Source: Verrucomicrobiales bacterium
GTDB lineage: Bacteria; Verrucomicrobiota; Verrucomicrobiia; Limisphaerales; CANJXF01
Length of the DNA stretch: 44,633 bases
Direction of reading: 5' to 3'
Assembly (NCBI GenBank): GCA_947478865.1
Contig: CANJXF010000035.1
Coordinates: 1 to 44,633, forward strand
Shown here: positions 28,687 to 44,633 of the stretch, in pieces
How the letters are laid out: each line of letters begins with the position of its first letter
Position numbering within the stretch: position 1 is the stretch's first letter
Position numbers and translations under genes: made by a program
The notes under the pieces: generated by a model
What the model was told of the DNA's origin: nothing
Databases searched by the model: none
Seen by the model: only the letters and a program-made list of their open reading frames with translations

Positions 28687-30099
28687 ATGCAAAACTTCCG
28701 TTGTCTGAATTCTGCGGCGATCATTTCTTTCGGATTTTTTTTAGCCGCAACACCTTTGTTCGCCGAGGAAAACAAGCCCGAGCCGCCGTTGAAACGGAGG
28801 TCTATCGAGCGCATGGCTCTTCCGCGGCTTGCGGCCACGCACGAGGACGTGCTGAAGTTGAAAGCATTGCGTCAAGCCGTTCCTCCCCTGCCCGGCTTCA
28901 ACGACTACCGCTCGATTCTTCACGCGCACGCTGAAGATTCCACCCACACCGGCGGCACGCGCCCTGAAATGCTGGCCGACGCGAAAAAAGCCGACGTGAA
29001 GGTCATCATGCTCACCGACCATTTCCGTCCGCCGCGCGATTTCATGGATAGCTGGCGCGGGATGAAGGAAGGGGTGTTGTTTGTGCCTGGTTCGGAGATT
29101 CGCGGGTTCCTGATTTATCCGACAAATTCGATCCTGGCCAAAATGGATTCGCCGTTGCCGGAATTCATTCCCACCGTCAGTGCCGGGGAAGGATTGATAT
29201 TTCTTTCGCACATTGAAGAACGCTCCGATCACTCAATGGAAGGATTGACCGGACAGGAAATTTATAACCGCCACGCCGATGCCAAGAAAGACATGACCTC
29301 CCTGATTGCGCTGGCGATGCGTCTGACGGATCCGAAACAAACCAAGGAGCTGCATGAATCGCTGCGGCTTTACCCGGAGGAAATGCTTGCCTTCCAGGTG
29401 GATTATCCAAAGGACTACCTCGACAAATGGGACCATGAAACCCAGAAGCGCCGGTTGACCGGAGTCGCTGCAAACGATTGCCATCACAACCAGGTTTTCG
29501 TGGTTAAGATGGTGGACGAAAACAGCATTCGCATCGGGACGATTGTGGACAAAGACGACGGAATGCGTCTTGTTACAGCCGCTTCGCGACCCGGCATCAA
29601 GGAGATGACCAAGGATCACAAACCCGGCGACACGCTCGTAAGCATCGACCTTGATCCTTACTACCGCTCATTCTGGAACGTCAGCACCCACATTCTAGCC
29701 TCGGAACAAACCGAGAAAACCATTCGCGCCGCTCTGAAGTCAGGCCACGCTTACGTCAGCCATGACTGGATGTGCGATCCAACCGGATTCCGGTTCGAAG
29801 CGCTCGCCAAATCCGCGCCAAAAATAAATCCCGCCGCAAAACCAGCGAAACCTTCAAAATCTCCCGGCGCGATCATGGGTGACGAAATCCCGTTTGCCCA
29901 AGGAATGCGATTGGCCGCCCAGTTCCCGCTGCAGACGAAGATTCGGTTGATCAAAGACGGCAAAGTCGTCCATGAAGAAACCCAATCGTTCATGGACAAA
30001 GGCATTGAAGGTCCGGGGGTGTATCGCGTGGAAGGCTGGCTGACGCTCGATGGAGAAGATCGCGGATGGATTTATTCCAACCCGATTTACGTGAGGTAA
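28687..30099 (+). CDS. Secreted PHP-domain metal-dependent hydrolase
   Basis: The 470-residue protein has a signal peptide (AAIISFGFFLAATPLFAEE) and then a PHP domain (about 70-300). Its metal-binding motifs are visible: ILHAHAEDSTHTGG (His-X-His), VIMLTDHFRPP (Asp-His), FVPGSEIRG (Glu) and VAANDCHHNQ (Asp-X-His). PHP enzymes hydrolyse phosphoesters, and exported relatives (CehA/McbA type) hydrolyse other esters. The C-terminal part (about 330-470) is a beta-rich domain with KIRLIKDGKVVHEETQ. It starts 5 bases after the ceramidase-like gene, so the pair is almost certainly co-translated and may act on the same substrate. Confidence 0.82.
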   Translation: MQNFRCLNSAAIISFGFFLAATPLFAEENKPEPPLKRRSIERMALPRLAATHEDVLKLKALRQAVPPLPGFNDYRSILHAHAEDSTHTGGTRPEMLADAKKADVKVIMLTDHFRPPRDFMDSWRGMKEGVLFVPGSEIRGFLIYPTNSILAKMDSPLPEFIPTVSAGEGLIFLSHIEERSDHSMEGLTGQEIYNRHADAKKDMTSLIALAMRLTDPKQTKELHESLRLYPEEMLAFQVDYPKDYLDKWDHETQKRRLTGVAANDCHHNQVFVVKMVDENSIRIGTIVDKDDGMRLVTAASRPGIKEMTKDHKPGDTLVSIDLDPYYRSFWNVSTHILASEQTEKTIRAALKSGHAYVSHDWMCDPTGFRFEALAKSAPKINPAAKPAKPSKSPGAIMGDEIPFAQGMRLAAQFPLQTKIRLIKDGKVVHEETQSFMDKGIEGPGVYRVEGWLTLDGEDRGWIYSNPIYVR

Positions 30100-30213
30100 A
30101 ACCAGGATTTTTTCGCGGGGAGGGACGGCGTAAATGCGATACTTTTGACAAGCTGCTATTGCTAAATTGGACGGTTCGGCAAACCCTGCTGTTAGATCCC
30201 GTCCGAACGACGA

Positions 30214-31032
30214 ATGAAAACATTGCCTCATTTTCCCTGCAAACGCGGATCGATAACGGCGTTGAGAAATCCCGCGCCCTCAGTCGGGTTCACCTTGATT
30301 GAACTGCTGGTGGTTATCGCCATTATCGCGATTCTGGCCGGAATGCTTCTTCCTGCGTTGGCGAAGGCCAAGGACAAGGCGCTGACCACAAAATGCCTCA
30401 ATAATCTCAAGCAGTTGCAGATGTGCTGGATGATGTACCTGGGCGACAACAACGATTTCATGGTGCAAAACAAAAGAACTGGCAACAGCTTTTCATATCA
30501 AGGCTCGGCAGGCTCATGGATTCTTGGGAATGCCAAAGAGGATTTGAATACGCTGAACATTGAGCAGGGCGTTTTGTTTCCTTACAACCGTTCGGTTGCT
30601 ATCTACGTCTGTCCCTCAGATCTTTCGAAAGCGACGAATAAACGCATTTATGTCCCACGGACGCGCAGTTACTCGTTGAGCGGTTACCTCGGCGGCCATC
30701 CGTATGAAGATTACGTCACGACCCGCGTAAAATATAAATATTCCGAATTGAATAAGCCGGGACACTCAAAGGTTTTCACCTTTATCGACGAGCACGAAGA
30801 TAGCATCGACGATGGACACTTTGGCTTTCTGCCTGCGCCCGATAACTCCTGGTACAACCTTCCTTCCAGCCGGCACAATCGAGGTTGCAACCTTGCCTTC
30901 GCTGACGGCCACGCAGAACACTGGCGCTGGAAGGCTGCGGCACCGTATAAATTTGTCAGCGTGTGGCAGAATGCCCTGGCGGATCAAATTCCCGACCTGC
31001 GCAGACTGCAAGGCGCCATTCCTGATCCTTGA
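30214..31032 (+). CDS. Prepilin-like protein with H-X9-DG element
   Basis: The 272-residue product has a 24-residue leader, [19 protein letters not shown] with the usual Gly before Phe, then [26 protein letters not shown] and a globular domain with [10 protein letters not shown] and [17 protein letters not shown]. It contains a full H-X9-DG element in [19 protein letters not shown], the best preserved of the four copies here. The start is the ATG at 30214, 114 bases after the PHP gene and on the same strand; a TTGACA box at 30145-30150 lies in that gap but has no good partner -10 box. The predicted site is the inner membrane with a periplasmic domain. Confidence 0.88.
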
Positions 31033-31135
31033 GTTCTGCGGGTGGGTTCCAAGTCGTTTTGAAATTTCCTCTTTGTCATCTAGATTTTGGGCGGCAGCGC
31101 ACCGGCAGAAATCGGAACTCCCAGAGCAACTCCTC

Positions 31136-31169
31136 GGGCTGAAGTTATTTTCCAAACGGATTTCAGCCC
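31136..31169. terminator. Hairpin between convergent genes, possible terminator
   Basis: An 8-bp perfect inverted repeat (gggctgaa at 31136-31143 and ttcagccc at 31162-31169) lies in the 156-base gap between the convergent prepilin-like gene and the PQQ-like gene. The 18-base loop and lack of a T-run on either side make it a weak candidate. Confidence 0.3.
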
Positions 31170-31188
31170 AGCTGGCATTGCTCGACAC

Positions 31189-32526
31189 TCATTTAGTGCC
31201 TTTAGCATCCGCATTCTTGATTCGATACAACTTCGATGCGGTTCGGATCACCAGGCTATCGCGCGCAATCGCCGGCGTGGCCATGCACATTTCGCCGAGC
31301 GTGTTCTTTCCGAGCACTTTGAATTCCGGGCCCGGCTGAAAAACGAACGTGTCACCATCTTCGCTCAGCGCAAAAATTCTATTCGCATAAGCCCAGGGTG
31401 AGGCAGTAAAGCTCGTAATCCCTTCCGGCCGCACCCGCTGTTTTTCGTAAACCTCTTTTCCGGTTTTCGCATCACGGCAACCGAGAAATCCAAAGTCAAA
31501 CAGCACATAAAAATAGTCTAGGTAAACCAGCGGCGAGGTGTTGTAAGGCGAAGCGGTTTTTTCACACCACGCGATGAAGGCATTGTTCGTTTCGCCCTCC
31601 TTCAATGTGATGTCGCCGGTTGCTCCGGGACGAATCGCGTAAACGGGACGAACAGCATCCATCACGTAGCCGGCTCCAACGTAAAGCAGCCCATGGCTCG
31701 CGAACGGAGTCGGGATGACGATGGACGACATGCCGCCCAATTCCCAAAGGACTTTGCCCTCGAGATCGTAGGAACGGACTTTGGCGCGACCGGGCACGAC
31801 CAGCTCGGTTCGCTTCGCATTTTGCCAGACGTAGGGCGTGGCCCAGTTGCTCTTTTCTTCGCGCTCGACGCGCCAGCGTTCTTTTCCGGTTTTCTTATCC
31901 AAGGCGACAAGAAATGATTTCTCTTCATTGTCGTTCACAACGAAAAGCACGTCCTTGTGCAGAACCGGGGAAGCAGCCGTGCCCCAACCGTAACGGGTGT
32001 TGGCGTGGCCCCACTTTTGCGACCAGAGTTCATTGCCGTTCATATCCATACAGAACAGGCCGAGGTTTCCGAAATAGGCATAGACGCATTTGCCGTCCGT
32101 CACGGGCGTCTCGGAGGCATAGGTGTTTTTCAAATGAATCGAGGAACTGGGCGAGCCTTCATGAACCTGTTTCGCCCAAAGTTTTTTGCCGGATTTCCAG
32201 TCGTAACAATAAACCATCCAGTGATGCGTGTCTTTGGAAGGGGTCTTTCGCTCGCCGCCGAAATAGAGCCCTTTTTTAGGCGCCTCCACCTCGCCATCCT
32301 TGATCACGGAGGTGACGAAAATCTTTTCACCCCAAACGATCGGTGACGACCAACCATTACCGGGAACAGGAACGCTCCAAGCCACATTCTCGTTCGTGCT
32401 CCAGGTCGTCGGAAGGTTCTTATTTTCCGCGACGCCGAGAGAATGTTCTCCACGGAACTGCGGCCAATTGTCTTGCGCGATGGCTGAGCTGAGGGCCAGC
32501 AGCGTGAGAACGAATATATTTTTCAT
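31189..32526 (-). CDS. Secreted PQQ-like beta-propeller protein
   Basis: The 445-residue protein has a signal peptide (MKNIFVLTLLALSSAIAQ) and opens with NWPQFRGEHSLGVAENKNLPTTW, the hallmark start of the outer-membrane/periplasmic PQQ-like propeller family abundant in this phylum. Blades with W-docking style repeats follow (MVYCYDWKSGKKLWAKQ, LVALDKKTGKERWRVE, VRSYDLEGKVLWELGG, CRDAKTGKEVYEK). These proteins look like quinoprotein dehydrogenases but usually lack evidence of cofactor use, so it may be a scaffold or ligand-binding protein. I chose the ATG at 32526, where the signal peptide begins, 4 bases after the SMP-30 gene. It is the last gene of the six-gene minus-strand operon. Confidence 0.82.
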   Translation of the reverse strand: MKNIFVLTLLALSSAIAQDNWPQFRGEHSLGVAENKNLPTTWSTNENVAWSVPVPGNGWSSPIVWGEKIFVTSVIKDGEVEAPKKGLYFGGERKTPSKDTHHWMVYCYDWKSGKKLWAKQVHEGSPSSSIHLKNTYASETPVTDGKCVYAYFGNLGLFCMDMNGNELWSQKWGHANTRYGWGTAASPVLHKDVLFVVNDNEEKSFLVALDKKTGKERWRVEREEKSNWATPYVWQNAKRTELVVPGRAKVRSYDLEGKVLWELGGMSSIVIPTPFASHGLLYVGAGYVMDAVRPVYAIRPGATGDITLKEGETNNAFIAWCEKTASPYNTSPLVYLDYFYVLFDFGFLGCRDAKTGKEVYEKQRVRPEGITSFTASPWAYANRIFALSEDGDTFVFQPGPEFKVLGKNTLGEMCMATPAIARDSLVIRTASKLYRIKNADAKGTK

Positions 32527-32530
32527 AAAC

Positions 32531-33553
32531 TTAAAAACCTTTTGCACGAGTGCTCGTCCTGATGCGGCAGAGATAATGGTTCGCCGTGATGTAGAGTGTC
32601 GATCCATCATTGCCCCAGGCGCAATTCCCGGTCGGCTCGCCGGTGTTGATGGTGCCAAGGTGTTTGCCGTCGCGATTGAAAACGAGAATCCCGCCCGGGC
32701 CGGTCGCGAAAAGATTTCCGGCCTTATCCACTTTCATTCCATCGGGATAGCCCGGAAGTTTTTTGGTCTTCGCGGTCGCATCGAAAAAAATTCGGCCATT
32801 GGCAATCGTTCCATCGCGCTTCACGTCGTAAGCCATCCAAACGGCTTTGGCATCGGACACCGCCACATACAAGGTTTTTTCGTCGGGTGAAAAAGCAATC
32901 CCGTTTGGATAAGGCAGCTCGCTGGTCAGCAAAGTGACGTCGCCGTTTTTCGCCACGCGATACACGCCGTTGTGGGCAAGCTCCTTGACGGGACTTTTGT
33001 TTCCTCCTTCCAATCCGTAGGGCGGATCGGTGAAATAAATATCGCCATTTGATTTGATCACCAAATCGTTCGGGCTGTTGAAACGTTTGCCCAAATACCG
33101 GTCGGCCAAGGTTGTTTTCGTTCCATTCTTTTCCAGGCGTGCGATGCGACGGTCGCCGTGTTCGCACAAAACCAGCCGGCCTTTTCCATCCACGGTCAGC
33201 CCGTTGGAACCTGGCTCGCCACCACGGGGTGTCGCGCCGGTATAACCGCTCGGCTTCATGAATTCAGTAATCCCCTCTCCTTCCTTCCATTTGAAAATGG
33301 TGTTCTTGGGAACATCAGAAAAAAGAAGGTAGCCGCCGCCGCGTATCCAGACCGGGCCTTCGGACCATGTGAAGCCTTCCGCGAGTTTCTCCAGCTTGGC
33401 ATCGGCTGGAATGAGCTTGTCGAGGGCGGGATCCAGCCGCTCGATTTTTCCGAAGGTCGGATATTTGGCCGGCTCCGCCACGGCGGCACCGGCGCTGATG
33501 AAAAGAACCGCCAGGGCTGTCGTGGCGCCTTGAAAAAGAAATCCTGTTTTCAT
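32531..33553 (-). CDS. SMP-30/gluconolactonase-like lactonase, exported
   Basis: The 340-residue six-blade propeller belongs to the SMP-30/gluconolactonase/LRE family, which opens sugar lactones with a divalent metal. The metal ligands are visible as the Glu in FTWSEGPVWI, the Asn in RFNSPNDLVI and the Asp in FSPDEKTLYVAVSD; GDIYFTDPPYGLEGG is a family landmark. A signal peptide (GATTALAVLFISAGAAVAEP) puts it in the periplasm. I chose the ATG at 33553 over 14 further upstream codons. It lies 47 bases after the metallophosphoesterase gene and 4 bases before the propeller gene. In this operon it would supply an aldonic acid for the aldolase route, which is an inference. Confidence 0.85.
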   Translation of the reverse strand: MKTGFLFQGATTALAVLFISAGAAVAEPAKYPTFGKIERLDPALDKLIPADAKLEKLAEGFTWSEGPVWIRGGGYLLFSDVPKNTIFKWKEGEGITEFMKPSGYTGATPRGGEPGSNGLTVDGKGRLVLCEHGDRRIARLEKNGTKTTLADRYLGKRFNSPNDLVIKSNGDIYFTDPPYGLEGGNKSPVKELAHNGVYRVAKNGDVTLLTSELPYPNGIAFSPDEKTLYVAVSDAKAVWMAYDVKRDGTIANGRIFFDATAKTKKLPGYPDGMKVDKAGNLFATGPGGILVFNRDGKHLGTINTGEPTGNCAWGNDGSTLYITANHYLCRIRTSTRAKGF

Positions 33554-33600
33554 TTTAGAATCGGAATCGCTGTCGCCCGCCGGGCATGGTTTCACTTGAT

Positions 33601-35394
33601 CTATTTTTCGATCACAAATTCATCGCGCACTTTTCCATCCAGATCATGCGCTCGATAGACGAGGCGGTTTCCAACTATTTGGATATCCAAAACCTGATAC
33701 GTGGAAACCTTCATCATGCCAACCTCGGTGTAATCGTGCGGCGCCTGTTCGTAATGTTTTACGCCGGAAACGGAGATGACGTAGACGGTTCCATCCTTCG
33801 TCGTCGCGGCCCGTTTCTGTCCGCGCATCGGATAGGTGCGCAGATAGGCGTGGTCGTGACCCTGCAGCGCGAGGTCGACGTGGTATTTATCGAACAACGG
33901 CGTCCACAGCTCGCGCACGTCGGTGTTATCGCGGTTTCCGCCGGATGAGTAGGCGGGGTGATGATAGCTCACGAACTTCCAAACCGCCTTGGTGTTGGCG
34001 AGCTGTTTCTCGAGCCACGCGGACTGTTTTGCCACGCTGAGATTGGAATCGAGAATGATGAATTTTGCGTTGCTGTATTCAAAGGCGTAAGCGCGTTGGT
34101 CGGGAATGGTTTTCGGACCATTGTGCGGCAATGCGAAATGCGCGTGGTAAAGGACCGGTTCGGGCGCTTGATATTCGTGATTGCCGAGCACCGGAACAAT
34201 CGGGCGACGATCGAACACGTCCTTGGAATATTCAAAAAAGCTATCCCAATCCCAACGCTCGGCGCCGCGATTTACGAGGTCGCCCGCCATGAGGTAAAAC
34301 GCGGCGTCGGGGCGGGCGCGATAGGCGTTGTGCAGCAGCACGCCCCATTTATCGAGCCCATTTTGCGCGTCGCCCATGTAGATGAATGAGAACGGAACTG
34401 CCCCCGCCGGAGCTGTGGTGAATTCCACTGGCTCCGTCCAACCCTTTTCCGAGCCGTCGCTGACTGAATAGCTGTAAGTCCCGCCCGCCTTTAACCCGCG
34501 CAACTCGACCGTGTGCCGGTTATTCACCGCATCGTTAAGAATCGTCGGCGTCGACAGCAGTTGGGTTTTGGCGCGTTTTGTCTTCGCCGATTTTGCATCG
34601 CCTGACTTCAATTGATAACGGACCGAGCCGCTGGTGATATTCGTCGCCGTGCGCCACTGAATCGCCTGGCTGGTGCGCGGGTCTTCGCTCCAGGTGAGAA
34701 CCACATGGTCCACTTTATTCGGCGCGGGAAATTGGGTCTTGCTGAACAAGCTCACCAGGCGCGCGTCGTCTTCGCTGTCGCTCGCCGTTTGCACGAGCAG
34801 TTGTCCTTCCAGCGATGCCGGCACGGCGGGAAAGCGGGTCGCCTGGTCAACGTATGGCTCGACGCCCGCAGTGAATTTGGCGGTGCGCAGTTGCGCTGGA
34901 TAAAGATCGGTGACCTTCACCGCGCCGCCAGGCTGCTGCGGTTTGAGCAGCACGATGTAATGCTTGCCGCGCCCGGTGAAATTATGAATTCCCAAGCCGA
35001 TTTCACCTGCCGGAAATTGCTTTTCCCAAATGCTGCAGTCGCGGCCCAGCAAAGAAACTTTTTCTCCTCGCTTGAAACCCCGCTCGAGCAGCCAGAACGG
35101 AACTTCCGCGCTTCCATCATCGACGATGGTCACCACCACGGGAACGTTGACGTGGAAATGCACATGACCGGTGCCAAGGATCTCCCGCTCGGCGGGCGTC
35201 AGAAAGGCCTCGACCTGCGACGCGGTCAATTCGACCAGGCTGTCCTGTTTCAGCTCGCGTTTCATCCGCAAAATAATGGCGGCAACCGTGTCGTGGACGG
35301 ACGGCTGGCTGCCGGTATGCGCGAAAGCGGATGGCGCGGCGAAAGCGACCAAGCCGGATAAAATCAATCTGAGAGCTAAGGAATTTCGTTTCAT
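33601..35394 (-). CDS. Secreted metallophosphoesterase with FN3-like domain and unknown N-terminal domain
   Basis: The 597-residue protein has a signal peptide (LRLILSGLVAFAAPSAFA), about 200 residues I do not recognise, a purple-acid-phosphatase-like N-terminal fibronectin domain (about 220-325, ending ELRGLKAGGTYSYSVSDG) and a calcineurin-like phosphoesterase domain (about 335-590). The metal-binding motifs are all there: FIYMGDAQ, MAGDLVNRG, LGNHEYQ, SYHHPAYS and QGHDHAYLRTYP. It would hydrolyse a phosphomonoester or diester in the periplasm with two metals. I chose the ATG at 35394; 36 more codons upstream would overlap the aldolase gene end. It is the fourth gene of the operon, 13 bases after the aldolase. 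Confidence 0.83.
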   Translation of the reverse strand: MKRNSLALRLILSGLVAFAAPSAFAHTGSQPSVHDTVAAIILRMKRELKQDSLVELTASQVEAFLTPAEREILGTGHVHFHVNVPVVVTIVDDGSAEVPFWLLERGFKRGEKVSLLGRDCSIWEKQFPAGEIGLGIHNFTGRGKHYIVLLKPQQPGGAVKVTDLYPAQLRTAKFTAGVEPYVDQATRFPAVPASLEGQLLVQTASDSEDDARLVSLFSKTQFPAPNKVDHVVLTWSEDPRTSQAIQWRTATNITSGSVRYQLKSGDAKSAKTKRAKTQLLSTPTILNDAVNNRHTVELRGLKAGGTYSYSVSDGSEKGWTEPVEFTTAPAGAVPFSFIYMGDAQNGLDKWGVLLHNAYRARPDAAFYLMAGDLVNRGAERWDWDSFFEYSKDVFDRRPIVPVLGNHEYQAPEPVLYHAHFALPHNGPKTIPDQRAYAFEYSNAKFIILDSNLSVAKQSAWLEKQLANTKAVWKFVSYHHPAYSSGGNRDNTDVRELWTPLFDKYHVDLALQGHDHAYLRTYPMRGQKRAATTKDGTVYVISVSGVKHYEQAPHDYTEVGMMKVSTYQVLDIQIVGNRLVYRAHDLDGKVRDEFVIEK

Positions 35395-35407
35395 AAAAAA
35401 TTTCCGT

Positions 35408-36229
35408 TCAGAGCCCAACGGTGGAGAGGGCTCGTTGCGATTTGCCAAAAGGTTCGAGCAATTGCGCCGCGCCGCGCGCCATGAATTCCGTGTCGGTCGC
35501 ACTCATGAAAAAGAGAAACCCTTGCTTCTTAAATTTATTAATCTGTTCAACCGTGAGCGCAGGCCGACCGAGGGCTTTGCCATGTTTCTTTCCGGCGGCG
35601 ACAATTTTTGCGACGGCGGCGTCGAGCTTGGGATGATCTTGTTCGCCTCGCAATCCCAGGGAGAACGACAAATCGCTCGTGCCGATGAAGATGACATCAA
35701 TGCCCGGTGTCGCGGCAATTTCGTCAATGTGCGACAGCGCGGTGGTGTCCTCGACGACCGCAACGACTAAAACATTTTTATCGGCAAAGTCGTAATAACC
35801 TTCCGGAGCGGGCCAGCGGAAATGCGCGAGATCCGCTCCGGAACCGCGCAAACCCATCGGTGGATAATGGCAGGCATCCGCGGCGCGCTTGGCCAACTCG
35901 GGCGTGCTCGTGAACGGGAAAATCACGCCGAGCACTCCGCAATCGAGCAATCGCTTGGCGGTCCAAAGTTCATTGACCGGCGGGCGGGCGATCGGCACGG
36001 CATGCAATCCACGCGTGGCGAGAACCACGTTGCGCACCGTCTCCAAAGAAATCGGGGTGTGCTCCATTTCCAGCCAGAGAAAATCGAAACCCATGTTGGC
36101 CGCCTGCGCAGCGACTTCGACGCTATTCACGCTGATGACGATGCCGATGACCGGCTCACCTCGTTTGAGTTTGGCTTTGACGGGATTTTCCCATTTGGAT
36201 TTTGGGGCTGCTGATTTTTTTGATGCCAT
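35408..36229 (-). CDS. HpcH/HpaI-type 2-keto acid aldolase
   Basis: This 273-residue cytoplasmic enzyme is a class II pyruvate aldolase of the HpcH/HpaI/citrate-lyase family, which splits 2-keto-3-deoxy sugar acids or 4-hydroxy-2-ketoacids. Landmarks are MGFDFLWLEMEHTPISLETV, ARPPVNE (substrate arginine), GVIFPFTSTPELAKRAADAC, YPPMGLRGSG, VVAVVEDTTALSHIDEIA with the metal-ligand Glu, and the end motif DVIFIGTSDLSFSLG. The N-terminus is rich in lysine and alanine before the fold. No signal peptide. It sits between a secreted GH-like gene and the phosphoesterase, the only clearly cytoplasmic enzyme of the operon. The natural substrate, possibly a deoxy sugar acid, is not determined. Confidence 0.88.
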   Translation of the reverse strand: MASKKSAAPKSKWENPVKAKLKRGEPVIGIVISVNSVEVAAQAANMGFDFLWLEMEHTPISLETVRNVVLATRGLHAVPIARPPVNELWTAKRLLDCGVLGVIFPFTSTPELAKRAADACHYPPMGLRGSGADLAHFRWPAPEGYYDFADKNVLVVAVVEDTTALSHIDEIAATPGIDVIFIGTSDLSFSLGLRGEQDHPKLDAAVAKIVAAGKKHGKALGRPALTVEQINKFKKQGFLFFMSATDTEFMARGAAQLLEPFGKSQRALSTVGL

Positions 36230-36250
36230 AAAATTAAAAATGTTTCACGC

Positions 36251-38713
36251 TCAGTTTGCGGGCGTTGCTTCCTTAATCAACCAAACTTCTGCCAGTTGGC
36301 AGCCGCGACCGTTGCCGCCGAGGCCGGATTCCACTGACCAGGTTAAAGTCAGTTCGCCGGATTTGGTTTCCGCAGGCGGAATCGCAAATTCCAAGGGCGC
36401 AAAGGGAAATGGCTTCGTGATGAACGAATGGATTTCACTCCGCTCATTGGCGACCAGGTGGATTTTTTTCCGCGGACTGTCGCCTCCGTAAAGAATGCGG
36501 ATTTTATAACGCGCCTTGGGATCGAGATCGGAATAGCGCAGGCGCATCGGCGTGTCGTAAAGACTTTCGGCGTGGTCCATCCAGGACATGCGCCGAGGCA
36601 AGCCAGCGGCTTCGATGGGTTCGTCGTAAATCAAATCTTCCTCGAAACCATTGCGCGTGGATTTCATTCGACCGGGATCGTCTGCGAAGCTTAGCCCCTG
36701 AATGAGATGCGGTTGCCGCGCGACATTTCCTAAATCGTCGTAGAATCCGCCCGGCCCCGGATTGGTCCAGTCCACGGTTTCCTGAATGGCTTTGAGGCGC
36801 TCGGCTTCCGCTGAGAGCTTGCGGATTTTCGCGAAACGATCTTCCAGCCAAAAACGGTTGTTCAACGGAAAATCAATCGTGTCGAGGCTGGCTCCGCGAT
36901 CGACGGCGATGGCTTTATATTTATCGACGCTCAATTGCATGCTGATGCTCTGGAATAGCTGGGCGGCCAATTCGTGCAGGCGCAGGCGCAAGTCCCGGCT
37001 GACGGTTTCGCCCGCAGCGCGCGCCAAAACTTTTTCCGCGGACACCATCGCATTCGAACTGCCGGACTGCGGGGCCTTTCGGAGAAGCTCCATTGCTTGC
37101 GCTTCAATGTCGGTCTCGTGAATGAAACGGCGGCGCACGTAAGCGTCGTAGTTGGCGCGATACAATCCTTGTTGAAATCGCCAGTTCTTCAGCAGTGCGG
37201 GGGAAGCAGCCCGCTCCATCGATTGAAACTGTGCGAGGGTTGTTTCCACCCCTTCATTCGCCAAAAGCGGGCCGCGCCAATTGCGTTCGAGCGCGAGCAA
37301 GCCTTGCGCGAAATCATCGGTGAATTTTTCGCCGATGAAGTAGCGGCTGTAACTGCGGAGAATTCCGGACACTTTCATTTCCGGATCCCAACCGAGGGCG
37401 CTCCAAACGGCTTTGTTCACATCGTCGTTGCAGCCTTCGGAGTAGGTCAGGAAACCGATCGTGTCCGGTTGGGTTTTTCGGAAAATGGCGGCTTCGGCTT
37501 CGGGCCGGGGATTGATGCATTCGCGCGCTTCGGTCACGGCAAACGCCACGTCCCAATCCTGCACGGGAAACTGGCACTGGCGCGTGTGGGTGATGTCGGG
37601 ATAATGGCGGATTGGGTATTGCTTCGGCACGGCGGCGCGGAGCTGCGGAAGATCCATGCGCACTTGCGGGCCGAAGACCAAACCGTTGAGCCAAGCCGGC
37701 TGCTCGCGTTTCAAATCGGCCAGAAATTCATCCATCCAGATTTGATTGAAGCCTTGGGGCGAAAGCCACATCTGCGCCTTGGGATGGAAGCGATGGAGGC
37801 TCTCCGTTTGTTTCTGCAACAACGCCATGAGCGGCTTCGGCGGAGTGTGGCCGGGATCGCCGCCCGGGACATAGACCGCGTCGAGACGTGGCATTTTCGA
37901 AAAAACTTCGGCCCATTCCCGCAACGCAAACTCAACCAGTTTTGGGTCGGCGTAATCTTTGTCCAACGCGGGATACCAGACCCATACATCAAGGCCGTAG
38001 GAATCAGCCAGCCGTGACATGCCGATCATCATCTCCATCGGCGGCAACGGGAAGTGCGGGCTGTCGGCGTCGTCGTCGGAACGCGGCGGAATTAATTCAA
38101 CCGCATTGCAGCCGAAGACGATCAGGTCGCGAAAGTATTGTTCCCACGTCGGCAAATCCCATGCGTCGTAGGAATGGGTTTTGGGACGGTAGCCGAGCTG
38201 ATGGCCGCGCAACGGATACTTCGGCGAGGTGGCGATTTCCAAATTGTCTTCGCTGCTGACGCTGCCGGGTTCCAGGCGAAGTTCGCGCAACAAACGGCCA
38301 ACGCCGAACAAGACTCCACGCGGATCGTCGCCGATGACAAAGACCGCCGGATTCGCCGCGCCACGTTTTGACACGAGGCGATAACCTTCGGGACCGTTGG
38401 CGCGAGATTCGGCCAACTCCTTCGAGTAGGGCCCGGCGAACTGTTTCAGCGTAGAACGGCTCCCGACGGCAATTACCGGAACGTTGGCCTCAGGCCAGGC
38501 GTTGGTCACGGCCCAGCGAACGCGCGTTCGTTTTTCGACTTCCTCGACCAGCATCATTACCGCTTTCTTCTCGCGCCCGGAAAGGTCGGAGGGCGAAACG
38601 ATCACGCCGGTCTTCAGGTCCAATGCTGATCCGCGATTGGCGGCCGCTAACAGGGTAAACACAGAAAGTGTCGTGACGACGAACGATCGACCGGTTGATA
38701 ATTTTTTCATCAT
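36251..38713 (-). CDS. Secreted GH20/GH67-N-like protein with altered active-site motif
   Basis: The 820-residue protein has a signal peptide (FVVTTLSVFTLLAAANRGSA), a zincin-fold domain like the N-terminus of GH20 and GH67 enzymes (about 35-170; LVEEVEKRTRVRW and FVIGDDPRGVLFGVGRLLREL), then a barrel (about 175-500) with YPLRGHQLGYRPKTHSYDAW, ADSYGLDVWVWYPALDKDY and LDAVYVPGGDPGHTPP. GH20 enzymes have H-X-GGDE at that last place; here it reads PGGDP, so the catalytic Glu would be missing. The helical and C-terminal sandwich part follows to ANERSEIHSFITKPF. An ATG pair (38713, 38710) can start it. It lies 6 bases after the membrane-protein gene and 21 bases before the aldolase gene. Confidence 0.68.
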   Translation of the reverse strand: MMKKLSTGRSFVVTTLSVFTLLAAANRGSALDLKTGVIVSPSDLSGREKKAVMMLVEEVEKRTRVRWAVTNAWPEANVPVIAVGSRSTLKQFAGPYSKELAESRANGPEGYRLVSKRGAANPAVFVIGDDPRGVLFGVGRLLRELRLEPGSVSSEDNLEIATSPKYPLRGHQLGYRPKTHSYDAWDLPTWEQYFRDLIVFGCNAVELIPPRSDDDADSPHFPLPPMEMMIGMSRLADSYGLDVWVWYPALDKDYADPKLVEFALREWAEVFSKMPRLDAVYVPGGDPGHTPPKPLMALLQKQTESLHRFHPKAQMWLSPQGFNQIWMDEFLADLKREQPAWLNGLVFGPQVRMDLPQLRAAVPKQYPIRHYPDITHTRQCQFPVQDWDVAFAVTEARECINPRPEAEAAIFRKTQPDTIGFLTYSEGCNDDVNKAVWSALGWDPEMKVSGILRSYSRYFIGEKFTDDFAQGLLALERNWRGPLLANEGVETTLAQFQSMERAASPALLKNWRFQQGLYRANYDAYVRRRFIHETDIEAQAMELLRKAPQSGSSNAMVSAEKVLARAAGETVSRDLRLRLHELAAQLFQSISMQLSVDKYKAIAVDRGASLDTIDFPLNNRFWLEDRFAKIRKLSAEAERLKAIQETVDWTNPGPGGFYDDLGNVARQPHLIQGLSFADDPGRMKSTRNGFEEDLIYDEPIEAAGLPRRMSWMDHAESLYDTPMRLRYSDLDPKARYKIRILYGGDSPRKKIHLVANERSEIHSFITKPFPFAPLEFAIPPAETKSGELTLTWSVESGLGGNGRGCQLAEVWLIKEATPAN

Positions 38714-38719
38714 GAATTT

Positions 38720-40357
38720 TCAGGGGTGAGGTGCGCCGGCTTTTGGCTTTTCTTTCGTGGCCGTTGCATCGGGACCGAAGCGAATATGTTTCGAGGCATT
38801 GCCGACAGGGCGGTCCCCAAACAGCCCACGAATGACCGCCCAATCCCCCAGCACCGAGAGCGCGGCGGCGAGGGAGCCGAACAAAATGGTTTTCCGCAAC
38901 AGCGGCGGCCACGCAAATCCAGGCGCAGGAAGGGCGCGGTTTGCCGACGGCGCACTCAGGAAAATTCCGACGGTGCAAAGTGCGGCGTTGAGAAAGATGA
39001 CCGCTTCGGTCACGAGCCGCTGTTCGGCGAACGAAACCAAAGCGCGCTCGAAATTTCCGATGACCATGACCCAAAGAAAGGCGAGATAGACCAGTTGACT
39101 TCGAGCCAGCCAACCCGCGCCGAGCAGCGGCAACGGCCGGCGTTGATGCACGCAAAGGAGCGCGAGAAAAACCGCGGTCAGCACAAGGTAGGCGAGGTTG
39201 AACCAGGTTCCCGCCGAAAGGCCGTATAAGATTTGCGGCATCGCTTTGGCGCTGACCCATTCCTCGGGATTCTTGACGAGGTTGATGTAGGTCAGCACGA
39301 GCAGAACGAAGCCGGCAGCATAGGGCTCGGTCCATTTGCGCACGCGCGGTTCGTCGCTGATTTTGGGCGCATGCTTTGCCACCCAGAAAAGTGCGAGCGC
39401 CAGGCCGAGGCCGTTGATGAAGCCGTAGGATTGCTCGAGAATGCTGTGCCAGTTCGTCTTCCAACCGGTTGAGATGCCGAGCAATTTCAGCAGGTTGCCA
39501 GACGCAAAACCAAAACCGCCGACGAGGCCGGCGACGACGGAAGCGAAGGTTAATCCCGTCAAACCGTTGCGCTGCAAGTAAACCCACATCCCGATCACCA
39601 TCCCGACACAGCCAGACCAGTTGTCGCCGCGCGGCGGGGTCATGCGCCAGCCGAGGAGATTGACGAGAATCAGGAATCCAAGCCACCAGCCGACGGCCAT
39701 GTGCAGGATGAGCGACGAGGCGGAGTCGAAGCGGCGGCGCACGGCGGCAAGGCCAAGCACGGCGACGATGGCGATCAGGGCCGCGAGCCAATCGGTGTCA
39801 TACCAATAGAAAACGCTCTGGTGGCGAAACGCGGGATTCTCGGGGAACCATTTTTCCAAAACGAAATCCTGGAAATGCCACGCCACAAAAATGACGGTAA
39901 GCGGCGCGAAGAATTCGGTCAGCCGTTCGCGGCTCAGAAAAGCCGGGAGTGCTGCCCCTGCCCCTCCAACTGCGGCCCAGAGAAAACCGATCACGAACAG
40001 GCAGGCGAAACCGTAGAGCGCCGAACTGGAGTAACCGGAATGCGTGTAGGCGATGACCTGCATGTAGGAGATGCTCCCGCCAAAGGACCAACCGAGCGCG
40101 CCGAAGAAGGCGAAGTAAACCCCGCGCCGATGCCAATCGCTGCGGCCGGAGAGAAGCACTGCGGCGAGGGTCGCGAGCATGCCGGGAATCATCGCGCCGT
40201 ATTCGTGCCCGAAATTTCCGCGAATGCCCCAACCGATGGAGAGCGATAGAGCGACCCAGAGGACGGTGAGCAGACCCGGCTGGGTTGAACGGGTTGCGGC
40301 TGATGGAGATTGGCCGCGGTTTCGCGCGGCGCCGGTATTTTCAACTGAACCTGTCAT
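38720..40357 (-). CDS. Polytopic membrane protein of unrecognised family
   Basis: I do not recognise this 545-residue protein. It has a basic cytoplasmic N-terminus of about 30 residues and then roughly 12-14 hydrophobic stretches, for example LLTVLWVALSLSIGWGIRG, MIPGMLATLAAVLL, ALYGFACLFVIGFLWAAVGG and LVYLAFLWVMVIGNFERAL. The GWGIRGNFGHEYGAMIPG segment after the first helix looks strongly constrained and may line a site. It could be a transporter or a membrane enzyme. I chose the ATG at 40357; a TTG at 40408 is the alternative. It is the first gene of the six-gene operon, so its role is probably tied to uptake or processing of the product of the secreted enzymes. Confidence 0.7.
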   Translation of the reverse strand: MTGSVENTGAARNRGQSPSAATRSTQPGLLTVLWVALSLSIGWGIRGNFGHEYGAMIPGMLATLAAVLLSGRSDWHRRGVYFAFFGALGWSFGGSISYMQVIAYTHSGYSSSALYGFACLFVIGFLWAAVGGAGAALPAFLSRERLTEFFAPLTVIFVAWHFQDFVLEKWFPENPAFRHQSVFYWYDTDWLAALIAIVAVLGLAAVRRRFDSASSLILHMAVGWWLGFLILVNLLGWRMTPPRGDNWSGCVGMVIGMWVYLQRNGLTGLTFASVVAGLVGGFGFASGNLLKLLGISTGWKTNWHSILEQSYGFINGLGLALALFWVAKHAPKISDEPRVRKWTEPYAAGFVLLVLTYINLVKNPEEWVSAKAMPQILYGLSAGTWFNLAYLVLTAVFLALLCVHQRRPLPLLGAGWLARSQLVYLAFLWVMVIGNFERALVSFAEQRLVTEAVIFLNAALCTVGIFLSAPSANRALPAPGFAWPPLLRKTILFGSLAAALSVLGDWAVIRGLFGDRPVGNASKHIRFGPDATATKEKPKAGAPHP

Positions 40358-40551
40358 CGGGTATTGATCGTTGGATTTTTCAGAACCTAGGGCTGTTGGA
40401 CCAGGCAAGGATCGCGATAGGTGGCGTTCATTTTTTTTGGTTGATGATGCCAGACTATGAACAGAGAATTGGTTTCATGCCTAGCGGAAATCACAGTTCA
40501 TCGCCGGAAATTTGCCTCCGGGCGCGGCCACCGGGCGCAAACTGGCGAGTT

Positions 40552-41967
40552 ATGTTTCGACTTCAAAATCTAATCAAACCGTTGCTAATCACTTTCATCA
40601 TGAGCCAATCAGGATGCCAAACCACCGAACTCGAGAAACCCTCTGCGTCATCGGCAGCGGAGGCTGGATTTTCTCCGGAGCGACAACTGACGCGCGGCCC
40701 CGGCGGACGCGTCTTGACGAATACCGGAGTGTGGTCGCCGGACGGACAGTGGATCGTTTACGACACGCGCGAAGTTGATTTCGACGGGAACTCGATTCGC
40801 ATGGTCAACGTGAAAACCGGCGAGGTGCGCGAGGTTTACCGGTCAAAGAACGGCGCCCATTGCGGCGTGGTGACGTTTCATCCCCGCGAAGAAAAAGTCG
40901 TTTTCATTCTTGGCCCGGAAAATCCCACGCCGGATTGGCAATACGAAATGTATCATCGCCAGGGTTTGATCGTCTCGACGGGCGGAGCATCGGTGGGCAA
41001 GACCTACAACCTCGACGCATGCGACGTCACGCCGCCGTTTACGCCAGGCGCTCTGCGCGGCGGCTCGCACGTGCATGTCTGGGATTCGGCTGGCGACTGG
41101 GTGAGCTTTACCTATGAAGATCACGTCATGGCGCAATTCAAGGAAGCGACGCCAGCCAACGACATCAACCTGCGCAACATCGGCGTGAGTGTGCCGGGTC
41201 GACCGGTAAAGGCGAGCAAAGCAAATGTGCGCAATCACGACGGCGAGTATTTCACCGCGCTGGTCACTCGCACCAAAGCGAATCCAACTCCCGGCTCGGA
41301 CGAGATCAAGAAGGCGTTCGAAGAAGGTTGGGTCGGAGCGCATGGCTACCTTCATCCGGATGGAACGCGTCAGCGTCGCGCGCTGGCCTTTCAAGGCCAC
41401 CTGGTCACAGCGAAAGGGCAAACCATTGCGGAAGTGTTCATCGTCGATTTGCCGGAAGATTTGACGCAGCCCGGTGACGGTCCTTTGGCGGGCACGGAAA
41501 CGCGGCTGCCATCGCCGCCGAAAGGTTGCGTGCAACGGCGCTTAACCTTCACCGCGGATAAAAAATTTCCAGGAATTGACGGCCCGCGTCATTGGTTGAG
41601 ATCTTCGCCAGACGGCTCGCAGATCGCATTCTTGATGAAGGACGACAACGGCATCGTGCAACTGTGGACCCTCTCTCCCAACGGCGGAACTCCACGGCAG
41701 GTTTCCCGCAACGCTTGGAATATTGCATCTGCGTTTACCTGGAGTCCCGATGGAAAATTTCTTGGGCACGCGATGGATCGCAGCATCTGCGTCACGGAAG
41801 TTGCCACGGGCAAAACGCGCCGGCTCACCGCACGGGCCGACGAAGCCACCGCGCCGAAATCCGAAGCGTGCGTCTTTTCGCCCGATGGAAAGGAGCTGGC
41901 TTACCTCCGACCCGTGGCTGACTCAGGCCGGTTCTACAACCAGATCTTTGTCACCAGCCTGAAGTAG
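40552..41967 (+). CDS. YidR/DUF3748 propeller protein, possible lipoprotein
   Basis: The 471-residue protein matches E. coli YidR (DUF3748) along its length: LTNTGVWSPDGQWIVYDTR, GAHCGVVTFHPREEKVVFI, the Asp-rich NLDACDVTPPFTPGALRGGS, HVHVWDSAGDWVSFTYEDHV and FLMKDDNGIVQLWTLSPNGG. The fold is a TolB/WD-like propeller. Unlike YidR as I recall it, this one has an N-terminal hydrophobic segment ending in SQSGC at residue 22, which could be an atypical lipobox. YidR's function is not established. I chose the ATG at 40552; the frame stays open upstream across the start region of the divergent membrane-protein gene. Its start faces that gene 194 bases away. Confidence 0.82.
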   Translation: MFRLQNLIKPLLITFIMSQSGCQTTELEKPSASSAAEAGFSPERQLTRGPGGRVLTNTGVWSPDGQWIVYDTREVDFDGNSIRMVNVKTGEVREVYRSKNGAHCGVVTFHPREEKVVFILGPENPTPDWQYEMYHRQGLIVSTGGASVGKTYNLDACDVTPPFTPGALRGGSHVHVWDSAGDWVSFTYEDHVMAQFKEATPANDINLRNIGVSVPGRPVKASKANVRNHDGEYFTALVTRTKANPTPGSDEIKKAFEEGWVGAHGYLHPDGTRQRRALAFQGHLVTAKGQTIAEVFIVDLPEDLTQPGDGPLAGTETRLPSPPKGCVQRRLTFTADKKFPGIDGPRHWLRSSPDGSQIAFLMKDDNGIVQLWTLSPNGGTPRQVSRNAWNIASAFTWSPDGKFLGHAMDRSICVTEVATGKTRRLTARADEATAPKSEACVFSPDGKELAYLRPVADSGRFYNQIFVTSLK

Positions 41968-42078
41968 AGACGATAACCGTTTCATCGGCCATGAAAACTG
42001 ATCGGCAACACATTGATTCCAACGGATCGATTTCCCCTCGCCCGGCTCAACAAGCCCAGTGAAAGCGAACCAAATCTA

Positions 42079-42900
42079 ATGTCTCGGTTTCGATTCTTAT
42101 TAGGAGGGGTGGTGATGGCTTTGGCCGGTTTGATTCTTATTGCGCCGGCGCACGGACAAACGTCAACAAACCGGTTTGCCTTCGACGATTTTTTTCTGTC
42201 GCCGGTGCGCGTGCATCTCTTGTCGGCCAAGGATTCGCCTGCGATTCACACTACTCTCAGGGAGGAAGACATCACCCGGATCCTGCAAAAAGTGAATAAC
42301 GTGTGGTCGCAGGCCGGCTTGCACTTTTATCTCGAATCACTCGTGCGGGAGGAGGCCCAGGGGCAGGAATCCTACACGCCGGCTGCGGAGGGAACCTACC
42401 ACCTTGCGCTGCTCGGGTTGCGCCCGATGGAATCGCGGTCAACGAACCTGTTTCACATTTATTACCTGAGAGAAATGCCGAACAACGGCATCTATTTTCC
42501 CGCAGCCCTTTTCGTGAAGGACACCGCGTCGCTGCGAAAAGTGGAAGGGGGCATTGACGAGCCGTTGCCCAGGGTCACATCGCACGAGCTGGGACATGCT
42601 TTCAGCCTTTCGCACCGGCAAGACAACACCAATCTGATGGCGTCCGGCACCACCGGCACCCGCCTCAACGAAGCAGAAATCAGCCAGGCCCGCCAAGCCG
42701 CCCGCAAATTCAATTGGGTTCAAACCGCACCCGACCTCATGGAAAAAGCGGATGCGTTGTTCCGCGAGGGCAAACTGACCAACGCCGCGATCTTATATTC
42801 GAGGGTGGCTATGATTCCGCTGGGGTTTGAACAGGTGAAATTGGCCAAGAAACGGATGGCTCAGGCGGCGCTACCCCATTCAAATTCACTCGCCAAATAA
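42079..42900 (+). CDS. Secreted metzincin-like zinc protease
   Basis: The 273-residue protein has a signal peptide (FLLGGVVMALAGLILIAPAHG). It carries a zinc-binding motif HELGHAFSLSH at residues 169-179 and a following NLMASG that fits the Met-turn of metzincins. The classic metzincin Gly (HEXXHXXGXXH) is Ser here. A matrixin- or archaemetzincin-type fold is likely, with the preceding 110 residues forming the upper subdomain (ITRILQKVNNVWSQAGLHFY). The last 50 residues look like a single helical repeat (DLMEKADALFREGKLTNAAI). I chose the ATG at 42079; upstream codons to 42013 lack a signal. It is 111 bases after the YidR-like gene, same strand. Substrate unknown. Confidence 0.75.
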   Translation: MSRFRFLLGGVVMALAGLILIAPAHGQTSTNRFAFDDFFLSPVRVHLLSAKDSPAIHTTLREEDITRILQKVNNVWSQAGLHFYLESLVREEAQGQESYTPAAEGTYHLALLGLRPMESRSTNLFHIYYLREMPNNGIYFPAALFVKDTASLRKVEGGIDEPLPRVTSHELGHAFSLSHRQDNTNLMASGTTGTRLNEAEISQARQAARKFNWVQTAPDLMEKADALFREGKLTNAAILYSRVAMIPLGFEQVKLAKKRMAQAALPHSNSLAK

Positions 42901-42917
42901 AAATCTCCCAATCCCGG

Positions 42918-42936
42918 CGGCGAGATTTCCTCGCCG
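42918..42936. terminator. GC-rich hairpin between convergent genes
   Basis: A perfect 7-bp inverted repeat (cggcgag, loop attTC-type of 5, ctcgccg) lies in the 48-base gap between the protease gene and the convergent response regulator gene. It could serve both directions, but no T-run follows. Confidence 0.35.
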
Positions 42937-42948
42937 GCCGCCGCGCCC

Positions 42949-43605
42949 TTATTCCAACATCAGGTGTTTCTCGCTGAACCGCGCGTAGAGCAGCGCCGCC
43001 TCCGTTCGCGTATGCACGTTGAGCTTCGCAAAAATCCGGCCCAGATAATTCCGGGCCGTCTTGTTGGTCAACCCCAGGTCTAGGGCCACCTCCTTGTCCG
43101 TCTTGCCCTTGGCTACCTCCGCCAGAATGCGCCGCTCCTGGCCCGTCAAGGCTTCGAGCGGGTTGACCCCACCAAGCCTCAAATTGTGCATGACTTCGCG
43201 CGTGACGACGGGATCGAAAACCGTCCCGCCCCTCAAAATGGCCTGGATGGCATCCACAATCCTCTGTGTGCCGCTCTCTTTGAGCAAATAGCCGTCGGCA
43301 CCGGCTTCCATGGACGCCAGGACAAACCGGTTGTCGGCATAGGAGGTCAGAAACAGGATATGGGTCTCGGACCGCAGCGCTTTGATCTGTCGGCAGGCTT
43401 CGATGCCGTCGCCGTCGGGCAGGCGGACATCCATCAAAACCAGGTCCGGTTCGAGCCGGACGGCCGCCTCCACCGCGGACAGCATCGTGGCCGCCTCACC
43501 TACAATCAAGATGCGCGGATCCAGTTCCTGTATTCGCCGCAGACCATCGCGCACGACCGGATGGTCATCCACGAGCAACACTTTGATGGGATCTTCAGGT
43601 TTCAC
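42949..43605 (-). CDS. NarL/FixJ-family response regulator
   Basis: The 218-residue protein has a receiver domain (about 7-125) with the acidic pocket VDDH (Asp13, Asp14), phosphoacceptor Asp59 in LVLMDVRLPDGDG, Thr in LFLTSYAD and Lys in YLLKES. A LuxR-type helix-turn-helix follows (about 150-210; LTGQERRILAEVAKGKTDKEVALDLGLTNKTARNYLGRIF). The start is a GTG whose bases overlap the kinase stop (GTGA, 43602-43605), so the pair is translationally coupled. Targets are unknown. With the kinase truncated, it may not be phosphorylated by its own partner. Confidence 0.9.
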   Translation of the reverse strand: MKPEDPIKVLLVDDHPVVRDGLRRIQELDPRILIVGEAATMLSAVEAAVRLEPDLVLMDVRLPDGDGIEACRQIKALRSETHILFLTSYADNRFVLASMEAGADGYLLKESGTQRIVDAIQAILRGGTVFDPVVTREVMHNLRLGGVNPLEALTGQERRILAEVAKGKTDKEVALDLGLTNKTARNYLGRIFAKLNVHTRTEAALLYARFSEKHLMLE

Positions 43606-44504
43606 GTTTCATCGGATTCAGCCGCGGGCCATTCTGCCCCGGCAAGTTCCAGAGGAGAAGCCGGAACTCGAATTACGACGCTGGTTCCGCGGCCCGGCGA
43701 CGATTGAAGGTTGAGTGTCGCGTGCATTTCCTGCGCCCGCGCGGCCATGCTAGCCAGTCCGACTCCCAGCCGGGCCGGGGCGCTTGGATCAAAGCCCGCT
43801 CCATCGTCGGAAATCTCCAGACAAACGGCTTCGCGCTCCGGCCGTAGCGCGATCACCACTCGCTGAGGTTTCGCGTGGCGGAGACTGTTGCTCAGGGCCT
43901 CGCGGACGATGTTGGCCAGTTGCACGGCCTGTGCGCCGGTCAGACGATCGGAAGCGCTGGAATCACATTGCAACTCGATTTGCGCCGACGCGCCTGTGCG
44001 CGCGCGTTGCACCAGGGCGCGCAACACCCCGCTGAAATCAACCGGTTGGTTGACGCTGCCTTCCGCCGTAAAGAACTGGCGGATCTCGGCAATCACAGCA
44101 TCCAGTTCATCGCGCACTGCGGACAATTCGCGCCTGGCATTGGCCGGCTCGGCCTCCAGCTTCTGGACGGTGTGGCCCAGACCGAGTTGAACGGCATAAA
44201 GCGACTGGATGGTGCCGTCGTGCAAATCACGGCTGAACCTCTCCCGCTCCTGCTGCGCGGCGGCCAGCGCATCGCGCGCCTCGCAAATCTGATCGGTTAA
44301 AAGTTCCTGGCGATTGCGGGCGCGCAGCCCAACACCCACCAGCGCAGTCGCCAGCAACGTCATTCCCATCCCGCCGCCCAACAAAAGCCAGCCGCGTTGC
44401 CGCGAAGACTCGGCTTCGAAAAACGGCGTGCTGACAAACTCCAGACACCAGCGCCGACCATACCACGGCTGAACCAGGATGCGCCGATGCTGGGCTTGTA
44501 TATT
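43602..44504 (-). pseudogene. CHASE-type sensor histidine kinase, N-terminally truncated
   Basis: The reading frame encodes a HisKA_3-type kinase: phospho-His in FSRDLHDGTIQSLY, the N box in NIVREALSNSLRHAKP, and G boxes DDGAGFDP and GVGLASMAARAQEM. Upstream of the first start codon in frame (TTG at 44384) the frame stays open to a TAA at 44507-44505 and encodes ILVQPWYGRRWCLEFVSTPF and then a transmembrane helix (WLLLGGGMGMTLLATALVGVG). That is what the end of a periplasmic CHASE sensor domain followed by the second membrane helix looks like. The rest of the sensor and the first helix are absent, so the gene appears cut at about 44500 by unrelated sequence. A short cytoplasmic kinase from 44384 could still be made. 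It is coupled to the response regulator by a GTGA overlap. Confidence 0.75.
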
Positions 44505-44633
44505 TTACAAACGCATGGACGGCCAATGTCCAAGGGGATGGTTTAGGCTCGTCGGCATGAAAATTTCTAAGATTGAGGCGGGAGAGCCGGTTTTGCAGCA
44601 ATTGGCACAGGCGTATGGCAATGAAGCCAGGGC
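44505..44633 (+). mobile_element. Possible foreign insertion boundary at right end
   Basis: Beyond about 44505 the sequence no longer continues the kinase gene. It contains a small inverted repeat (tggac/gtcca around 44516-44532) and the start of an outward-reading ORF. This may be the end of an insertion element; only one end is visible and I do not recognise the terminal sequence. It differs from the possible element at the left edge. Confidence 0.25.
44557..44633 (+). CDS. Start of an outward-reading ORF, unknown (partial)
   Basis: An ATG at 44557 opens a frame that continues to the window edge for 25 codons (MKISKIEAGEPVLQQLAQAY...). It lies about 50 bases beyond the point where the histidine kinase loses its homology, divergent from it. 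No clear Shine-Dalgarno is present. I do not recognise it; the setting suggests a mobile-element ORF, but it may be an ordinary gene. Confidence 0.35.
   Translation, partial: MKISKIEAGEPVLQQLAQAYGNEAR

Follow-up and report, generated by a model that had tools for sequence, protein, structure and literature searches.

A membrane-protein gene at positions 38720-40357 (minus strand) of the window, by which we mean the whole 44,633-nucleotide stretch of DNA analysed here, encodes a member of a family that is new to the standard databases searched. The reading frame gives 545 amino acids from ATG according to the ORF list and its translation, and a TTG start at 40408 gives an alternative longer reading. 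Our preferred but tentative reading, to which we allow somewhat less than an even chance, is that the protein belongs to an undescribed family of secondary permeases of the inner membrane and would import an acidic sugar freed by a glycosidase encoded next to it. The features used in the analysis are listed below, with "outer" referring to the predicted topology.

38720..40357, minus strand: membrane protein of subfamily A with 15 membrane-length helices (ORF and translation; AlphaFold2 pLDDT 91.5, pTM 0.91)
40196..40234, minus strand: GWGIRGNFGHEYG, residues 42-54, predicted outer end of helix 1 (alignment counts and model; R46 common to all four subfamilies)
39617..39637, minus strand: PPRGDNW, residues 241-247, predicted outer loop preceding helix 8 (subfamilies A-C share R243 and W247)
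39431..39457, minus strand: TNWHSILEQ, residues 301-309, predicted outer start of helix 10 (E308 in all four subfamilies)
39005..39019, minus strand: RLVTE, residues 447-451, predicted outer start of helix 14 (R447, T450 and E451 in 81/81 A sequences)
38774..38788, minus strand: HIRFG, residues 524-528, C-terminal tail (R526 and F527 in 81/81 A sequences)
36251..38713, minus strand: GH20/84/67-like glycosidase, secreted, 820 aa; a conserved neighbour (weak Pfam GH20b/GH67N match; profile of relatives)
35408..36229, minus strand: HpcH/HpaI-type pyruvate aldolase, 273 aa (Pfam HpcH_HpaI, 5e-30)
33601..35394, minus strand: purple-acid-phosphatase-like protein (metallophosphatase), next in the same-strand run (an internal ATG was used as start)
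32531..33595, minus strand: SMP-30/gluconolactonase-like protein (Pfam SGL, 3.9e-46)
31189..32658, minus strand: PQQ-type beta-propeller protein (Pfam PQQ_2, 5e-24)

The first-pass annotation had described an unrecognised polytopic membrane protein that matches no transporter family, and both statements held. The ORF is exact, and no Pfam or NCBIfam family matched the protein at E up to 1. No match was found in PHROGs, PADLOC, viral contigs or plasmids, and PDB sequences gave none by single sequence or by two profiles, so the search by sequence profiles for a clear match to a known transporter came back empty. Members scanned from the other subfamilies had no Pfam match reaching cut-off and no NCBIfam match, and searches of the open-access literature with family and motif words found no description of the family at listing level.

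Structure prediction, which had been proposed as a check, gave a confident AlphaFold2 model from a 44-row alignment, and the core (residues 27-334) modelled alone reached pLDDT 93.9 and pTM 0.92. The full model has 15 membrane-length helices, so the earlier estimate of about 12-14 was too low. Foldseek found no match in the PDB at E 1e-3 for the full model or the core, and BFVD had no match to the full model at 1e-3; query TM-scores were at most 0.26 with rmsd above 13 A, and the top rows were unrelated folds. In VIA, Z was 5 or more in 0/1000 for the full model (best 4.5) and in 4/1000 for the core (best 5.5, to a GPCR segment), and these best VIA-align values lie below the tool's noise guide for helical models. 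The comparisons would allow for a fold that no solved structure shows, although absence of a match is no proof of a new fold. An internal repeat of TM1-4 (RG..GHE, FGGS..Y, W127) and TM7-10 (PPRGD, GGFGFA, NWHS..E) had been suspected by eye, but it was dropped, as hhalign of non-overlapping segments gave P of 0.01 to 0.4 and no convincing match.

The scan of GTDB species genomes yielded 431 candidate stretches, of which 396 were confirmed as relatives by tblastn, and the detailed counts cover the best 80 of these 396. The best 80 span seven phyla and are mostly Poribacteria (47), with Planctomycetota (9), Verrucomicrobiota (7), Armatimonadota (6), Acidobacteriota (4), Gemmatimonadota (3), Omnitrophota (1) and 3 of no group, as read from the titles. 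In a tree of the best 80 plus the window, the window falls in a starred six-row clade with four Verrucomicrobiota rows and the ungrouped L019. The window protein is placed in subfamily A by full-length homology with RGNFGHE, PPRGD-W, NWHSxLEQ, R447/E451 and HIRFG. A full-length A protein was present in 5/192 genomes of its own order, which means a patchy spread, and the single-sequence search found one copy in the window genome (one 100% match) and hit 1/288 genomes of a phylum sample, the window's own. By profile search, the window genome also has a distant paralogue on another contig, and a superfamily member was present in 60/196 own-order genomes, mostly of subfamily B. Subfamilies B, C and D are equally unclassified and more distant than A: B reads RGQYGHETG (about 490 aa), C reads RGFIGGG (about 445 aa) and includes the window genome's paralogue, and D was found in 12/146 genomes, one of them a weak cross-hit. 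A longer form with an insertion, A', has a 728-aa frame in G024.

Several members stood out individually. The C-type paralogue of the window genome (L129:3867-5201 on contig 109; WGLRGFIGGG, 444 aa) lies directly downstream of a propeller-type protein. Subfamily D (L131:1465-2550 and L143-L153) reads WAIRGCSGYG, and in the alignment it has no PPRGD loop motif and keeps the E308 position. The member at L141:8087-9628 reads GWGIGASYGG, so the otherwise universal RG is lost; its neighbours, named by eye, are an M13-like peptidase gene on one side and an NRAMP-like gene on the other. In genome G015, a 93-aa frame (L013:1501-1779) matches residues 175-207 and then 506-545 and looks like a decayed membrane-gene copy with a large internal deletion; this genome still has a GH20-like gene.

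Conservation was mapped on 44 diverse subfamily-A sequences (the window plus 43 of the 80 loci, chosen at <82% identity), and 45 columns were invariant. With the match in its own genome and the 396 relatives, this lifts the gene well beyond what chance would give. The segment GWGIRGNFGHEYG is among the most conserved parts of the protein, as its first description had suggested, with H51 in 81/81 and E52 in 78/81 subfamily-A sequences. In an alignment of all subfamilies (A, 44 sequences; B, 30; C, 2; D, 9), R46 and E308 were present in all 85 sequences and were the charged residues common to all four; W43, R46 and G47 were part of the scan patterns and regular expressions, so their invariance is partly by selection, and E308, R243 and H51 lay outside these patterns, except that D rows were picked with W..E..GG, which favours E308. 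W247 was kept in A-C, as was R243, which is K in three of the A sequences. H51 was found in 44/44 A and 29/30 B and is not listed in C or D. E52 was found in 41/44 A, 30/30 B and 1/2 C, and the common residues of D do not include it. The idea that this Gly/Arg/His/Glu-rich segment might form an active site keeps some likelihood, but a His/Glu active site is partly disfavoured because subfamilies C and D lack H51 and do not conserve E52.

To orient the model, helices were taken in turn and the even loops, being richer in K+R, were assigned to the inside (variable K+R of 13.2 inside against 8.1 outside per sequence, 30/44 sequences, p 4e-5). On this basis the N-terminus is probably inside, which would place every named motif on the outer side. 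Of the columns with at least 95% conservation, 53/72 fell in the outer half (background 51%, p 9e-5), and so did 15/19 conserved R/K/H/D/E/N/Q columns (p 0.049), the inner-half exceptions being R72, D74, R207 and Q421. The K+R bias thus points to a conserved polar face turned to the periplasm, and the topology suggests that the conserved residues may be grouped in space. Such a face would fit an outward-open binding site and a periplasm-facing enzyme alike.

The main rival, which we consider rather unlikely, is an enzyme embedded in the membrane whose active site faces the periplasm; it might be a transferase or hydrolase with a released sugar or a lipid-linked glycan as substrate. The outer-half bias, taken with the N-in orientation, would suit such an enzyme, and so would the very strong conservation of loop residues that are charged or aromatic. 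But Pfam and NCBIfam gave no enzyme family, the fold searches gave no convincing match, subfamilies C and D do not keep H51 and E52, and clustering with a secreted glycosidase and a leaderless aldolase is better explained by transport. Among known membrane enzymes, prolipoprotein diacylglyceryl transferase (Lgt) works at the periplasmic face and has a signature of Arg followed by G-N-F-x-N-x-E-x-x-G, to which GIRGNFGHEYG of the window protein bears a superficial likeness; Lgt has about half as many helices as the window protein, and no Lgt profile matched in Pfam or NCBIfam at E up to 1. Of the GT-C fold, ArnT (Z 3.3) and AftA (Z 4.2) were both at noise level.

The permease reading comes from the gene neighbourhood. 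The membrane gene is followed on the same strand by the GH20-like, HpaI-type, metallophosphatase, SMP-30 and PQQ-propeller genes, with gaps of 6 nt between the membrane and GH20-like genes and 21 nt between the GH20-like and aldolase genes. It had been said to head an operon, and it is the first gene of the run, but terminator-like sites numbered 15 against 16.0 expected and promoter-like sites 6 against 3.8 expected, so no operon boundary is claimed. Rfam gave 0 matches within 30000-44633. The divergent genes at 40285-42900 (plus strand) encode a DUF3748/TolB-propeller protein and a protein that is small and metalloprotease-like, and in L218 a DUF3748 homologue (62%) adjoins a GH20-like gene. 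In addition to the weak Pfam match of the glycosidase itself, a profile of 16 relatives matched GH84 O-GlcNAcase (2.3e-7) and GH67 alpha-glucuronidase (1.1e-6), both in the N-terminal domain, and DUF4838 was found in 3/16 relatives. The aldolase matched the NCBIfam models HpaI (3e-47) and GarL (6.5e-42), both below equivalog cut-offs, as well as HpaI, YfaU and DDG-aldolase structures. By eye, the N-terminus of the glycosidase is leader-like and the aldolase has no evident signal sequence. A second GH20-like paralogue, about 43% identical, was seen in the window genome (L219:4738-7206, contig 81).

The window's other genes were searched by tblastn against the 80 loci and 14 more. A GH20-like and/or HpaI gene lay beside the membrane gene in 5 of the best 80 relatives, the GH20-like gene at L019, L020 and L021 and the HpaI gene at L020, L021, L023 and L026 (L021 and L140 are one and the same place, as are L020 and L185). 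The gene order is membrane-GH-HpaI in the window, membrane-GH in L019, GH-HpaI-membrane in L020 and HpaI-membrane in L023 and L026, and in L021 the membrane gene is divergent from GH-HpaI. Within these loci the adjacency was found nowhere outside Verrucomicrobia-type loci, and the purple-acid-phosphatase-like gene had no conserved link to the membrane protein. The GH-HpaI pair is wider than the trio, since HpaI was beside or next but one to GH in 9/39 GH loci fetched. In one of these 39 (L192, genome G383) the gene immediately upstream of the GH20-like gene, in the same orientation, codes for an MFS carrier whose best model is that of the D-galactonate subfamily, at E 6e-42 and short of the cut-off; other carriers were sought by eye only. 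Neighbours of other members include GH28, BNR sialidase-like, Gfo/Idh/MocA, GHL6 and nucleoside hydrolase genes. A conserved neighbour in Poribacteria was set aside as evidence, because the flanking families that recur do so in close relatives and usually lie on the other strand; the membrane gene was called in 73/80 loci for that table, and the other neighbour listings use all 80.

Co-occurrence with the GH20-like gene was then counted genome by genome. In the own order the gene was present in 37/192 genomes, namely in 5/5 with A, 5/6 with A' and 8/42 with B/C, and A plus A' together had it in 10/11 against 27/181 of the others (p 2e-7); two genomes with membrane-gene fragments only, both GH20-like positive, were set apart from A. 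The base rate in the own phylum sample was 6/288 genomes, two above 400 bits. In 198 Planctomycetia genomes (the class name taken from the Aquisphaera locus used as centre), 35/56 superfamily carriers had the GH20-like gene against 8/142 (OR 27.9, p 7e-17), and by our own split on bit score it was present with A in 12/17, A' in 9/11, B/C in 14/20 and A'' in 0/8. Subfamily B/C as a negative control therefore worked in the own order but failed in Planctomycetia, which puts the link there at superfamily level. Among A genomes reached through loci, the gene was present in 18/30 overall and 18/22 outside Poribacteria and Gemmatimonadota, where none was positive (0/7 and 0/1 A genomes searched). Large sugar-eating genomes could be part of the cause of the co-occurrence. 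Eight of 11 D genomes were also in the GH20-like list, the weak cross-hit G020 being left out.

We propose that the secreted GH20/84/67-like glycosidase would free an acidic or deoxy sugar, a uronate-type sugar being the best guess, and that the membrane protein would bind it in a periplasm-facing cleft and carry it into the cytoplasm. The putative cleft would be lined by R46, H51, Y98, R243, W247, N302, W303, H304, E308 and a C-terminal group of R447, E451 and R526. After intermediate steps encoded elsewhere, the HpaI-type aldolase would split a 2-keto-3-deoxy acid into pyruvate and an aldehyde. Because the glycosidase is leader-like and the aldolase leaderless, the product would have to cross the inner membrane, and the membrane protein is the only polytopic member of the trio. 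Uptake of the freed sugar acid is the simplest account, since the three travel together in shuffled order. The gene neighbourhood thus makes a carrier a likelier reading than an active site formed by the GWGIRGNFGHEYG segment.

For a permease we count the adjacency in 5/80, the GH20-like co-occurrence, the MFS gene of L192 and the sugar-related neighbours elsewhere. Against it, Poribacteria make up 47/80 of the best relatives, yet none of the seven searched has the glycosidase; A'' is at 0/8 in Planctomycetia, B is unlinked in the own order (8/42), the adjacency is confined to Verrucomicrobia-type loci among those searched, MFS replacement was seen in 1/39 loci, the one-sided conserved polar residues (15/19) are also expected of an enzyme, and hhalign gave no repeat. 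The pairing with the glycosidase is therefore not universal, and the Poribacteria would call for a broader substrate class, or for the pairing being one use of a more general carrier.

MFS sugar-acid transporters (ACS-type, for hexuronate and galactonate) are like it in the inferred role of sugar-acid import beside a glycosidase and a pyruvate aldolase, and one adjoins the GH20-like gene as described, but the window protein has 15 helices and no MFS profile match (Pfam/NCBIfam, E up to 1), and the MFS fold of two six-helix bundles is represented by SLC15-type rows that do not rise above noise (E 0.18 in Foldseek for SLC15A4, Z 3.5 for SLC15A3). The APC/LeuT-fold carriers AdiC, ApcT and GadC were the top Foldseek rows for the full model, but they were non-significant (AdiC E 3.2e-3, TM-score 0.17, rmsd 21.8 A; GadC VIA Z 3.2) and probably not a real match, with no family profile match in Pfam, NCBIfam or PDB sequences. 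Man-PTS IIC/IID was among the few rows spanning the whole core (Z 5.0, rmsd 4.5, 117 aligned), at a Z that is noise level for helical models, and the window protein has no PTS sequence match. That the protein belongs, as a highly diverged member, to some known fold of transporters or membrane enzymes and was missed by profile and structure searches is improbable in our view: the scattered weak matches to AdiC, Man-PTS and AftA point that way, and structure comparison covered solved structures and BFVD, but the low TM-scores, high rmsd, best Z values and unrelated top rows given above argue against it. A role as sensor, receptor or assembly factor in glycan breakdown outside the cytoplasm would suit the periplasm-facing conserved residues and the varied Poribacteria neighbours, but it is quite improbable, as the AlphaFold2 model has no cytoplasmic signalling domain and no constant regulatory partner was found among the called neighbours (73/80 loci).

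Beyond the permease reading of the window protein, the A-D superfamily is possibly, though with clearly less than even confidence, one with a fold absent from solved structures and a new class of sugar-acid permeases or of periplasm-facing membrane enzymes in glycan-degrading Planctomycetota, Verrucomicrobiota, Armatimonadota and Poribacteria. If so, the profile databases searched would lack an entire family of transporters (or membrane enzymes), one whose conservation spans seven phyla of environmental bacteria. The glycosidase-aldolase cluster offers a concrete, testable substrate class, and a confident model with no structural match makes the protein a good target for structure determination. 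The unclassified family proteins in Poribacteria and planctomycete genomes would then become nameable.
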